In this document: positions 2,855 through 17,855 of the stretch, piece after piece
How positions within the stretch are numbered: the stretch's first letter is position 1
Layout of the letters: each line of letters opens with the position of its first letter
Origin: a virus
Direction: 5' to 3' (one strand)
Length of the DNA stretch: 22,500 bases
IMG/VR virus record: IMGVR_UViG_3300044641_003988
Location: 1 to 22,500 of that record
Made by a program: the position numbers and the translations under genes
The notes under the pieces: generated by a model
Told to the model about the DNA's origin: nothing
The model's input: the letters and a program-made list of their open reading frames with translations, nothing else
The model's database searches: none

Positions 2855-3253
2855 TTATCGTACTCTACTTAGTAAAGTTGTAATTGTTATTGGTTTGTCT
2901 GTGTTCTTTAAAGCAAATACTATATTCACAAGTAGGTCATTGGATTCTACAGTTTCTTTAACCTGCACATCTATTAGTCTTACTCTAGGTTCAAATTTCA
3001 TTATTGCTTCCTCAATCGTTCGTTCCATTGCAATTTTTGCAGCAGGGGAAAAATTTTCAAATAATAGTGAATAAACTTGAGTACCTATTTCAGGGTGAAA
3101 GGGTCTTTCAAAATTTCGTGTTTGTATAAGATGTTTTAAAGCTGTTTTAACTGCTTCTTCATCTGTTTTTAAATACAGGTCTTTAGTAAAAGGATTAACC
3201 TTAAACGAGAGATCTAAATCTACAAAAGCTTTTGCTGTTTTTTGTGTTGCCAT
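2855..3253 (-). CDS. 25: Baseplate wedge protein gp25 (gpW/gp25 family)
   Basis: A 132-residue protein with the standard gp25 layout. After a short N-terminus come NPFTKDLYLKTDEEAVK and LKHLIQTRNFERPFHPEIGT, followed by the conserved YSLLFENFSPAAKIAMERTI stretch. The ERPFHPEIGT segment is the recognisable core of the gpW/gp25 family, related in sequence to phage lysozymes but structural in the baseplate, where gp25 joins the sheath initiator and gp53 in the inner wedge. T4 gp25 is also 132 residues. It lies between gp5 and gp6, as in T4. No Shine-Dalgarno sequence is visible before the ATG. Confidence 0.9.
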   Translation of the reverse strand: MATQKTAKAFVDLDLSFKVNPFTKDLYLKTDEEAVKTALKHLIQTRNFERPFHPEIGTQVYSLLFENFSPAAKIAMERTIEEAIMKFEPRVRLIDVQVKETVESNDLLVNIVFALKNTDKPITITTLLSRVR

Positions 3254-15199: not shown

Positions 15200-15466
15200 T
15201 CACAATGGTAATTTTCCTCGTTTTTTCAAATAATTTTGATCTTCAGCCTCTGATTGAATCTTATCTTTTAGTGACTGATTAATCAATTTAGACACAGACT
15301 CGACGTCAATGTCTACTTCATTGCAATACTGTATAACAGCATCCATATAACCGATCTTTTCTCTAAACACTCGTTCTTCAATGTGTAGTGAGAATTCATT
15401 AGGTGATCTAAATTTTTTAGTAATGATCAAACTATCAGTTAAAATATATTGTACTTCTTCGTTCAT
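15200..15466 (-). CDS. 33: Late transcription co-activator gp33
   Basis: An 88-residue protein, shorter than T4 gp33 (112). It has the core pattern KKFRSPNEFSLHIEERVF, then KIGYMDAVIQYCNEVDIDVE and SVSKLINQSLKDKIQSEAE, ending LKKRGKLPL, which I recognise from gp33 of T4-like phages. gp33 bridges RNA polymerase (beta flap) and the gp45 sliding clamp for late transcription. Whether the short C-terminus holds the clamp-binding motif I cannot tell. Its ATG overlaps the stop of the bilin reductase gene by 4 bases (ATGA), tying it to the pigment genes upstream. Confidence 0.85.
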   Translation of the reverse strand: MNEEVQYILTDSLIITKKFRSPNEFSLHIEERVFREKIGYMDAVIQYCNEVDIDVESVSKLINQSLKDKIQSEAEDQNYLKKRGKLPL

Positions 15467-16134
15467 TGTGTTTCCGGGAAAAGAACCTCATCCATAAAAT
15501 TCATAAACACATCTCTATCTACTCCGAAGTTAATCATCATTGCAGGTGTATGTGGATTTAATTTTTGGTTCTTACAGTAATTGTTGTGTGCTTCTTTATA
15601 ATCGTCTTTTGACTCTATACCTACATTATATAGGTAATAGTCTAGATTGTCAATAACTGTAGATGCTAGTTGATCAAATTCTTCTTGAGTTTGAATGTTT
15701 CCCGCTGCTAACATATTTGGACTGAAAATACGCTTAGCCCAATCGGGCAATTCTCTTGGTTTGTTCCAAGTAATTTTTGACATCTTATCCTGATACCAAT
15801 CATATGTTTTCGAATCACCAGTATGTGAGAAATCGTGGAATGCACCTGTAATTTTGTTTTGTCCGCATACTATGTCAAATCCAAAAATAGGATCTGGGGA
15901 ATTATGATGCGGGAAGATACACATATGCATGACCCACATCTTTTTATGTTTCGTAGCATCAACAATCTCAATGTGTGCTCTGCGAAATTTGTCAGACGTC
16001 CAAATATAGTTTTCCCAGGTAAAATTATCAGACTCATGCCTGTATTCTGGTTTTAGATCTTCTGGTGTGTATGACTCTAATTTTTTAATAATATCTTTTG
16101 CAAGCTTATTCGCTTGTGGCCACACTTCAATCAT
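15463..16134 (-). CDS. Ferredoxin-dependent bilin reductase, PcyA/PcyX type
   Basis: A 223-residue enzyme of the family that reduces biliverdin IXalpha to phycobilins with electrons from ferredoxin. Aligning by eye with Synechocystis PcyA: KFRRAHIEI matches its QFRKMHLEL block, VMHMCIFP its LHCVMFP block, FGFDIVCG its FGCDIVAG block, and RELPDWAKRIFS its RELPPWGEIFS block. This puts Glu56, His70 and Asp87 at the PcyA Glu76-His88-Asp105 triad, so all three catalytic residues appear present. The protein is shorter than cyanobacterial PcyA (about 250). Product could be phycocyanobilin (PcyA) or phycoerythrobilin (phage PcyX). The gene overlaps heme oxygenase by 8 bases and gp33 by 4. Confidence 0.88.
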   Translation of the reverse strand: MIEVWPQANKLAKDIIKKLESYTPEDLKPEYRHESDNFTWENYIWTSDKFRRAHIEIVDATKHKKMWVMHMCIFPHHNSPDPIFGFDIVCGQNKITGAFHDFSHTGDSKTYDWYQDKMSKITWNKPRELPDWAKRIFSPNMLAAGNIQTQEEFDQLASTVIDNLDYYLYNVGIESKDDYKEAHNNYCKNQKLNPHTPAMMINFGVDRDVFMNFMDEVLFPETQ

Positions 16135-16660
16135 TATAATCTTTCAACATATTGATATTATGTTCAAATGCAACATTAGCTTCTTCTGCTAATGATACAT
16201 CTAGTTTTTGTCTTACGTTCGTAATCAGTTGTGGTAAATTTTCAAACTGAAACATTCTATTACTACCAGGCAACAATTTAGCTAGCATTTGTCCGCCGAA
16301 CATATCACCCATGTGTCTAACATAGATATGAGCTAACATTTTATTTGCGTCATCTTTAATTGTTTCTAGATAATTGATATAGTTGATAGTTGAAGTATTT
16401 ACTTTACCGCTGGATACAGATTCACCTATCAATTCATAATAATCTAATTCAATTGCTTTTGCTCTTTTAATATTATCTATACCTTTAAAAATACCTAGTC
16501 GTGTGCCGTGCCACTCTAAATTTTGATACAATACCAACAATTGATATAAGTAATCAATGTATTTGTCTCTATCAACTTGACCTTTGAAAATTGATTTGAT
16601 AAAAGGTTGCTCTTCAGCTTCCTTATGTTTTTCCGAAGTTAATTCTTTTAATGTGCTCAT
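16127..16660 (-). CDS. ho1: Heme oxygenase (HO-1 type)
   Basis: A 177-residue heme oxygenase that opens heme to biliverdin IXalpha, Fe2+ and CO, the substrate source for the reductase encoded next. The proximal heme ligand is His12 in LTSEKHKEAE. The distal helix is YVRHMGDMFGGQML (113-126), matching the GDxxGGQ motif of the family. It is shorter than plant, cyanobacterial or human enzymes (usually above 210 residues); the C-terminus stops soon after the conserved NVAFEHNINML helix. It overlaps the 2OG oxygenase by 4 bases (ATGA) and the reductase by 8, so the three are translationally coupled. Confidence 0.93.
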   Translation of the reverse strand: MSTLKELTSEKHKEAEEQPFIKSIFKGQVDRDKYIDYLYQLLVLYQNLEWHGTRLGIFKGIDNIKRAKAIELDYYELIGESVSSGKVNTSTINYINYLETIKDDANKMLAHIYVRHMGDMFGGQMLAKLLPGSNRMFQFENLPQLITNVRQKLDVSLAEEANVAFEHNINMLKDYND

Positions 16661-17265
16661 AACCCTCCCATTCCACCGCTCGGTGGTGGAAATCCCAAAT
16701 ATGGTCTGTGGTCATATTTGTAATCCCTATAATTACCAAATTTATCTACATAATGTAGAAACGCTTGTGTTTGTCTTTCACCTTTGTATTCATCTCGCCA
16801 ATGTGGTAAGATATCACCCTTATAAACGATAAGATCTCCTGGTTCTAAAAAGATAGGAAAACGCTCACCTTTTAAATTATCAAACCAAATTTCCCAAGGT
16901 TCAGGATCTACAGAAATATTAACAGTAGTTGAAAATTCGCAACTTGGTCTATCAGTATGTTCCGTCATTATTGCACCTTTATAATATATTCTAGCGTAAG
17001 TATAAGTATTATAAAGTTTCTTGCCTGTTACCTCTTCCATCATTGGTAACATTTGTACAGATAATGTTTCAAAACAAGCCGCGGAATAATAAGCAAAACT
17101 ATTTGTTACTTGGGTATCACCAAACATAAATTTGTTTTCCTCACTTTGACCACCCTTCATATAAGTTACTCTTTTTAGTAACTCAAATTCTAAATCTAGA
17201 TGTTCTAATAATTGTGGTTGAATTGCGCCTCTCACAACTTCATATAGATTGTCTTTAAATGACAT
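16657..17265 (-). CDS. 2OG-Fe(II) oxygenase
   Basis: A 202-residue protein with the double-stranded beta-helix iron motif: His103-x-Asp105 in MTEHTDRPSCEF and a distal His155 in ILPHWRDEY, followed by Arg164 in GERQTQAFLHYVD as likely 2-oxoglutarate ligand. The strand before the iron motif (YTYARIYYKGAIM) and LEPGDLIVYKG are also typical. Such genes are common in marine T4-like phages; the substrate is unknown. It is the first gene of the overlapping string oxygenase - heme oxygenase - bilin reductase - gp33, so a link to bilin chemistry is possible but unproven. AAGGA lies 8 bases before the ATG, just beyond the tmRNA terminator. Confidence 0.85.
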   Translation of the reverse strand: MSFKDNLYEVVRGAIQPQLLEHLDLEFELLKRVTYMKGGQSEENKFMFGDTQVTNSFAYYSAACFETLSVQMLPMMEEVTGKKLYNTYTYARIYYKGAIMTEHTDRPSCEFSTTVNISVDPEPWEIWFDNLKGERFPIFLEPGDLIVYKGDILPHWRDEYKGERQTQAFLHYVDKFGNYRDYKYDHRPYLGFPPPSGGMGGL

Positions 17266-17284
17266 AGTATTCCTTAATAAAAAA

Positions 17285-17313
17285 GTAGGTTATTCTGTTA
17301 CGAGGAAACCTAC
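17285..17313 (-). terminator. Terminator of the tmRNA gene
   Basis: On the minus strand GTAGGTT (17313-17307 side) pairs with AACCTAC (17291-17285 side) in a 7-bp stem, followed at once by TTTTTTATT. It closes the coding piece of the tmRNA. The 2OG oxygenase Shine-Dalgarno follows within a few bases, so read-through may supply the next operon. Confidence 0.65.
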
Positions 17314-17331
17314 CGAAACCCTAAGCAGCGT

Positions 17332-17364
17332 TTAGGCTGCTAAAGCGAACTGTTCGTCGTTTGC
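17332..17364 (-). other. tmRNA proteolysis tag frame, ANDEQFALAA-stop
   Basis: The minus strand reads GCA AAC GAC GAA CAG TTC, then GCT TTA GCA GCC TAA. The bases before GCA (ACGUAAAU) line up with ACGUAGUC before the E. coli resume codon, so GCA at 17364-17362 is the resume codon. With the charged alanine the tag is A-ANDEQFALAA, close to E. coli ANDENYALAA, and ends in ALAA as ClpXP requires. The stop codon lies in the loop of the AGCAGC/GCUGCU stem. Confidence 0.9.
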
Positions 17365-17458
17365 ATTTACGTTTTTTGCTTCTTCGGCCAAGTTACCTCA
17401 ACCCTGCGGGTTTCACATTCCCGAGCTGTCTACTCTGTTACTAATTGCCCTGTCGAAA

Positions 17459-17641
17459 CTATTCAGGCCCTTCAAAAAGATTCTTCCATCTGTCTAATGC
17501 TTCGAAGTAGCTAATCCAGACACATCCTTCACATCCTCTACCACAACAAGTAGTTGGCTCTTGTGGTCTTGGATAAAAATCCTTTTGGTGGACCTGGGGG
17601 GATTCGCACCCCCGTCCAGAACACCGTTCTCTTTGCTTCAT
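17459..17641 (-). CDS. Cys-rich 'oxidoreductase-like' ORF inside the permuted tmRNA
   Basis: A 60-codon frame from ATG 17641 to TAG 17459. Residues 1-21 are encoded by the tmRNA acceptor piece and look like no protein family. Residues 24-60 lie in the intervening segment: [19 protein letters not shown] then [16 protein letters not shown]. This matches the short oxidoreductase-like domain I know from bacteria and mitochondria (P-x-P/E, CC-x-x-GC-x-x-CVW, YxEALxRW), whose function is unknown. The final codons GGG CCT GAA TAG are the 5' end of the tmRNA coding piece. No other start (ATG, GTG or TTG) occurs in frame. The ATG is 4 bases after the upstream gene's stop, so coupling is possible, but translation would run through the T-arm. 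Real gene, relic or coincidence is open. Confidence 0.45.
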
Positions 17642-17645
17642 ACAG

Positions 17646-17855
17646 CTATAAAATATTAGTTAAATCTCCAACATGCACATAACCATCAACTTTTAGATTC
17701 GGATCACTAATACATTCTAGCAATACATGACGCTTATCGATATCTTCAGGATGAAAGTGTTTAACAACAAATTCATGTCCTCGATATTTGTCATAAAAAG
17801 GTTTGAATGGTGGTTTGTAAACCTTATCTAAAAATTTAACTTTTTGTGATAACAT
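17646..17855 (-). CDS. Small hypothetical protein upstream of tmRNA
   Basis: A 69-residue protein I do not recognise. It has aromatic and basic residues near the N-terminus ([20 protein letters not shown]), a middle [20 protein letters not shown] and an end [14 protein letters not shown], which reads like a small beta-barrel or SH3-like fold; that is inference only. No Shine-Dalgarno is visible before the ATG, and the upstream DNA is very AT-rich (ATATATAATATG). Its stop codon (17646) almost touches the tmRNA acceptor piece, so it may be transcribed together with it. Confidence 0.6.

Follow-up and report, generated by a model that had tools for sequence, protein, structure and literature searches.

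Few described systems come close to the locus analysed here. LAGLIDADG homing endonuclease genes have been reported in 23 of 844 group I introns of intron-form tmRNA genes (Mao et al., 2025; PMC11915505), and there too the tmRNA precursor loses a segment that contains a protein gene. These introns are self-splicing, sit in the T-loop and carry a selfish element's own endonuclease, whereas the intervening sequence (IVS) of the present gene would be cut out by tRNA-type processing and the proteins encoded in such segments are diverse. For permuted tmRNA genes, the same part of the paper reports one tRNA gene and one repeat in IVSs, with no mention of a protein gene there (PMC11915505). The tRNA gene, a tRNA-Ala gene in one nominally archaeal case, resembles our locus as a second gene nested in an IVS, but it is an RNA gene found in one genome, whereas protein genes are nested here. 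Aquatic phages, among them the OM43 phage Melnitz, also carry two-piece tmRNA (PMC9004378). Melnitz shares with our locus a permuted tmRNA borne by an aquatic, T4-like phage; its tmRNA belongs to the alphaproteobacterial type and comes with a glutamine riboswitch, and the accessible part of that report mentions no protein gene in the IVS. In the open literature, subscription journals and preprints being outside the scope of the search, no report of a permuted tmRNA with a protein gene in its IVS was found. Endonuclease genes in tmRNA group I introns and the two-piece tmRNA of aquatic phages are known, and protein genes in the IVS appear to be new.

The window, i.e. the whole stretch of 22,500 nucleotides that was analysed, contains on its minus strand a permuted (two-piece) tmRNA gene, to which ARAGORN assigned positions 17241-17678 and the tag ANDEQFALAA. 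With Rfam, RF04321 matched positions 17332-17647 (minus strand) at 121.4 bits (E = 1.2e-23; gathering cut-off of 47 bits) and RF01850 (beta_tmRNA) matched positions 17260-17709 at 98 bits. The acceptor (tRNA-like 3') piece, delimited from the Rfam alignment and the sequence (17586-17647, minus strand), precedes the coding piece and has a T arm and a CAGGTCC-ACCA end; in the acceptor stem, GGGCCTG pairs with CAGGTCC at all 7 of 7 positions, G3.U70 being kept. As the CCA end falls at 17586 and the acceptor stem resumes at 17470, this pairing sets the IVS at exactly 115 nt (17471-17585, minus strand), in agreement with the approximately 115 bases given by an earlier, sequence-only reading of this DNA. 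The 5' part of the coding piece matched by RF04321 runs from GGGCCTG to the tag stop codon (17332-17470, minus strand), and the complete piece extends to about 17241-17260 according to ARAGORN and Rfam. The tag frame, ANDEQFALAA*, lies at 17332-17364 (minus strand; ARAGORN positions 315-347), with a resume codon and a stop. Very long tags of around 27 amino acids, such as ANVNKTVTVSGKNIKFSARSAKEALAV, were predicted by ARAGORN in the permuted tmRNAs of L012, L017, L052, L053 and L388; the long tags of related phages end in LAV or LA, not LAA.

A reading frame of 60 amino acids (17459-17641, minus strand) crosses all parts of this gene, starting at an ATG in the acceptor piece (17641-17639), which the Rfam model places in a single-stranded linker, and having its body in the IVS. 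Its stop codon TAG (17461-17459), already located by the sequence-only reading within the start of the coding piece, corresponds to nucleotides 10-12 of that piece. The same reading had proposed a Cys-rich oxidoreductase-like domain in the IVS, for which an HMM search was suggested; when this search was run, residues 24-54 of the frame (17480-17572, minus strand), with the motif CCGxGCExCVW, matched the Oxidored-like family PF09791 at 44.8 bits (E = 1e-11), above the curated gathering cut-off of 24 bits. This was the single PF09791 match in the whole record of the window. Two other groups of nested Oxidored frames matched the family at 41.7 and 39.9 bits (E = 9e-11 and 3e-10), and a profile of the phage family matched a single PDB sequence, chain o of 7zm7, an 'oxidoreductase-like domain-containing protein' (E = 9e-8), in an alignment covering the CC..GC..CVW..Y..W motif.

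The motif P-x-x-P...CCG-x-GCE-x-C-V-W..Y..W was present, and in the numbering of the aligned window fragment P6, P9, C12, C13, G14, G16, C17, E18, C20, Y25 and W32 were invariant among nested and free copies, with the V and W of the motif nearly so. The known PF09791 proteins, which comprise small bacterial proteins and a fungal protein (7zm7 chain o), share with the window protein the CCxxGCxxCVWxxYxexxxxW motif and its four Cys; they are encoded by free-standing genes or form domains of larger proteins, whereas tRNA-like RNA would be the template for the N-terminal third of the window protein. The name of the family is no proof of oxidoreductase activity, and any activity or metal binding is putative. 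An AlphaFold2 model of the 60-aa protein contained one helix (43-56) and had a mean pLDDT of only 68, too weak for a fold search, and therefore no argument from the fold is made. No family for the window protein was found in PHROGs.

A search of viral contigs yielded 43 loci (L002-L044) with an Oxidored ORF in the IVS of a permuted tmRNA. They form three sequence groups with different acceptors and with IVSs of either 115 or 109 nt, a difference of 6 nt that preserves the frame. When the domain alone was searched for, starting from relatives of the nested copies, 66 loci were found, of which about 50 were nested and 10 lay directly upstream of a permuted tmRNA, and at 6 no permuted tmRNA was detected within the fetched DNA; with that seeding, around 60 of the 66 copies were either nested or immediate upstream neighbours of such a gene. 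Only one PF09791 copy was present in each of the Oxidored-bearing phage records examined, the 347-kb one among them, and it was nested in all of them except G007, where it was free-standing, and G008, where it was upstream of the tmRNA. All the relatives are metagenomic viral contigs.

The conservation of the frame in related phages, which the sequence-only reading had made the test of its proposal, was borne out. None of the 31 distinct Oxidored-bearing segments had a stop in the nested frame, whereas both other forward frames had stops in most or all of them, and no frameshifted copy was present among the copies found. In related phages without the domain (L050-L081), the IVS was an unrelated segment and not a decayed copy. 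Substitutions were mostly synonymous, with 12 synonymous and 1 nonsynonymous between the window and L010 (dS 1.10, dN 0.011, p = 9e-10) and 13 versus 5 between the window and L018 (p = 2e-8). The window group compared with the L020 group gave dS 1.58 and dN 0.21 (p = 2e-5), and values across the Oxidored groups ranged from 0.7 to 2.2 for dS and from 0.2 to 0.3 for dN; these p-values were obtained pair by pair with Fisher tests on site counts, for pairs that are not independent of one another. Among the members of the window's group, the variable columns at codon positions 1, 2 and 3 were 6, 6 and 25 of 37 each. This pattern, with dN/dS far below 1, shows strong purifying selection on the nested reading frame, and a chance ORF is ruled out by the family match together with the codon statistics.

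The DNA is constrained twice, because the ends of the IVS form a conserved helix besides the selected reading frame. IVS nucleotides 1 to 8-11 (5' strand AAAGGATTT, 17577-17585, minus strand) pair with a strand that ends 4 nt before the coding piece (the AATCTTTTT region, 17475-17483, minus strand, where the end of the protein, L-F, is encoded as well), so that the acceptor stem continues beyond an internal loop (ACCA/UGAN). This end helix had a mean of 9.2 pairs in 88 IVS clusters versus 4.5 when ends were swapped between IVSs, and at least 7 pairs were formed in 80% of the clusters versus 17% with swapped ends. In the Oxidored set the helix covaries (A-T/T-A at pair 0; T-A/C-G/T-G at pair 6), and the protein encoded by both of its strands is kept despite the covarying pairs. 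Pairing and covariation of the ends, and the presence of the same helix in short IVSs without ORFs, would suit a segment constrained as RNA structure only, with the open frame as a by-product. However, RNA structure yields neither a family match such as that to PF09791 nor the uneven variability of the codon positions and the synonymous excess (p down to 1e-10), so that this explanation is refuted for the body of the domain and, for the locus, is scarcely credible.

The opposite possibility, that the tmRNA is dead and the locus serves solely as a protein gene, would fit the 5 of 43 scanned nested-domain loci at which ARAGORN returned no tmRNA, but at least one of these five is cut by a contig end and another, L019, is still matched by Rfam. 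Moreover, the G3.U70 acceptor stem, the T arm, the pseudoknot-bearing coding piece and the 10-aa tag are intact in the window and in most relatives, and conservation is far stronger in the acceptor sequence than in the IVS, which makes a dead tmRNA very unlikely. One and the same stretch of DNA apparently is both an RNA gene and a protein gene.

The start site is the weakest step. As the sequence-only reading had stated, the only start codon lies in the acceptor piece: in the window the acceptor ATG is the sole in-frame ATG, GTG or TTG before the domain, and in all three Oxidored groups the IVS lacks such a codon in this frame. The ATG is also present in tmRNAs without the domain, and it is therefore the tmRNA's own, taken over and not made for the gene. 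Among the listed members it is absent only from L018, which has ACG at this place and in-frame TTG codons upstream, so that the start codon is not conserved in all members. No clear Shine-Dalgarno sequence precedes the acceptor ATG. In the window, a 69-aa upstream gene (17646-17855, minus strand) ends at a TAG (17648-17646) situated 4 nt before the acceptor ATG, and translational coupling of this gene to the nested frame is possible. In L007 the upstream gene encodes a thioredoxin and overlaps the nested frame as ATGA, whereas in several other groups 20-63 nt separate the upstream stop from the acceptor ATG, and coupling is therefore not general. An own promoter of the tmRNA was also considered and rejected, as the late-promoter-like TATAAATA near -20 to -22 of the ATG was mildly enriched only, and weak in the window.

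The gene could be real while its translation begins at another place, either at a non-canonical codon within the IVS or at an upstream in-frame TTG as in L018, the acceptor-encoded residues not belonging to the protein. Free-standing copies begin with M-Y-P exactly where the IVS begins, a place at which nested copies have F-Y-P or another first residue, and most of the other nested genes described below begin inside the IVS behind AAGGA; the lack of the acceptor ATG in L018 points the same way. On the other hand, the IVSs of the three groups lack any in-frame ATG, GTG or TTG, the position of the ancestral ATG reads TTT, and AAGGA has been lost in several members. Such a start is thus improbable, and initiation at the acceptor ATG is preferred.

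The nested gene pointed out by the sequence-only reading proved real, but it is not a single odd case, since protein genes recur in the permuted tmRNAs of phages, most of them with a ribosome-binding site and a start of their own. IVS clusters from three scans were tested for ORFs that begin within the first 35 nt and run to the end of the segment. Such ORFs spanned 9 of the 14 clusters of at least 160 nt versus 0.16 expected from dinucleotide shuffles, 7 of 16 at 110-159 nt versus 1.8 expected, and 13 of 31 at 80-109 nt versus 5.5; the Oxidored clusters, with their start in the acceptor, fall outside this criterion. After the addition of scans for AAGG-ATG behind CCA, which were selected for ORFs and kept out of the excess statistics, 120 nested ORFs were grouped into 46 sequence families, one large family probably being two joined by shared tmRNA-derived tails. 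Many of these families are orphans. Matches above the Pfam cut-off were obtained for a staphylococcal-type nuclease (SNase) nested in an IVS of 455 nt (L294, E = 2.6e-12), CxxCxxCC proteins (L060, E = 1e-6; L096, E = 1e-5), a thioredoxin with WCGPC nested in 268 nt (L515, E = 4e-21) and a DUF2061 protein nested in 220 nt (L485, E = 3.5e-20), and the tmRNAs of all four kinds of nest were confirmed by RF04321. The CxxCxxCC genes of L060 and L096 differed with a dS of 2.18 and a dN of 0.14 (p = 9e-15). An HNH-like protein nested in L617 scored just below the Pfam cut-off, and the assignment of a 122-aa nested protein to HTH_45 was dropped (E = 0.009, below the cut-off). A tblastn search with the domain, the CxxCxxCC protein and the 122-aa protein gave no credible match in 50,697 isolated-phage records.

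Most nested genes start 9-14 nt past the CCA behind AAGGA and end at a TGA 1 nt, or at another stop 12 nt, before the coding piece, and therefore fit wholly in the excised segment. The Oxidored class differs in that it borrows the acceptor ATG and spans the acceptor, the IVS and the coding piece. Four families, i.e. the thioredoxin, a 52-aa family (L193/L573), the L512 family and CxxCxxCC, were found inside the IVS of some phages, and in other phages they lay directly upstream of the tmRNA, with BLASTP E-values of 4e-5 to 2e-44 between nested and upstream copies, and the Oxidored gene likewise occurs in both places. This exchange might plausibly have come about by local recombination at conserved tmRNA segments. 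In L386 (3001-4600) and L387 (2203-3800), an Oxidored-like gene is followed by a broken acceptor fragment, and the complete permuted tmRNA lies about 1.4 kb beyond, a layout that would be left by a duplication or recombination at the tmRNA.

Other arrangements were also observed. In L046 (4998-5339), the acceptor is overlapped, in another frame, by an Oxidored-like gene, and a second small gene, for a membrane peptide of 38 amino acids, lies in the IVS of this tmRNA. The 256-nt IVS of L140 has two tandem genes for small membrane proteins, each of which occurs alone in the IVS of L113 and L065, respectively, and hydrophobic peptides of 22-26 residues ending at the TGA beside the coding piece are a common nested class (e.g. 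L268, L486, L491, L562, L605, L642). A 119-aa protein without a Pfam match (LYHATYRPLLKSIRQHGL...VYLALDP), nested in the 373-nt IVS of L489, may recall ADP-ribosyltransferase-like proteins, which is an impression only.

The best explanation for the locus, and in our judgement a likely one, is a working permuted tmRNA gene whose IVS became a protein gene, translated first and processed afterwards. The sequence itself establishes the tmRNA and its nested domain, the selection acting on the reading frame, a conserved helix at the IVS ends and the recurrence with other genes; from these we infer synthesis of the protein, its start codon, the coupling and the order of translation and processing. 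On a transcript in the order acceptor piece, IVS and coding piece, ribosomes would initiate at the acceptor ATG before the precursor folds and is cut, in this phage probably by re-initiation, with the upstream gene stopping 4 nt earlier. The ribosome would cross the acceptor and the IVS and stop at the TAG just within the coding piece, releasing a 60-aa protein whose last two thirds would be the Cys-rich Oxidored-like domain. The ends of the IVS would then pair, prolonging the acceptor stem, and processing nucleases would excise the IVS while maturation yields the two pieces of the tmRNA. Across phages, the IVS of permuted tmRNAs would be a protected slot for small genes.

As it spans all three parts and would be destroyed by processing, the Oxidored class must be read from the unprocessed precursor. 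Protein making and tmRNA making possibly compete, as the sequence-only reading proposed, and translation first with processing later on one transcript would fit equally well. In L384, L388, L390 and L392, an upstream Oxidored gene with its own ATG continues in frame through the acceptor and stops just after the CCA (around 3001-3216); therefore, the acceptor is translated in such loci if the gene is expressed. The nesting might itself be functional and do more than save space, with a translating ribosome keeping the precursor unfolded, protein synthesis and tmRNA maturation regulating each other, and the protein acting in the phage tmRNA pathway (ribosome rescue or redox), a proposal that we regard as speculative and rather unlikely.

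A segment regarded as discarded RNA would thus be a phage gene slot, reused many times for unrelated proteins, in which the acceptor ATG, the purine-rich strand of the extended stem and the UGA beside the coding piece would have been co-opted as signals for the start, for ribosome binding and for the stop. With the space commonly attributed to RNA, such nested genes may be overlooked by gene callers and tmRNA annotators. The sharing of one transcript by translation and RNA processing becomes testable, and the same RNA with dozens of different inserts offers a comparative system for the maturation of permuted tmRNA.

The virus is probably one of aquatic bacteria, and a betaproteobacterial affinity is suggested by the RF01850 match and by Burkholderiales plasmid homologues of the domain. 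Scans of genome contigs for a host tmRNA and a cellular context gave no match at all, and the nesting described here comes from viral contigs. Two neighbouring genes on the minus strand of the window encode a ferredoxin-dependent bilin reductase (15463-16134; PF05996, E = 4e-22) and a heme oxygenase (16127-16660; PF01126, E = 1e-21), a combination described as a phage bilin cassette (PMC11480375).
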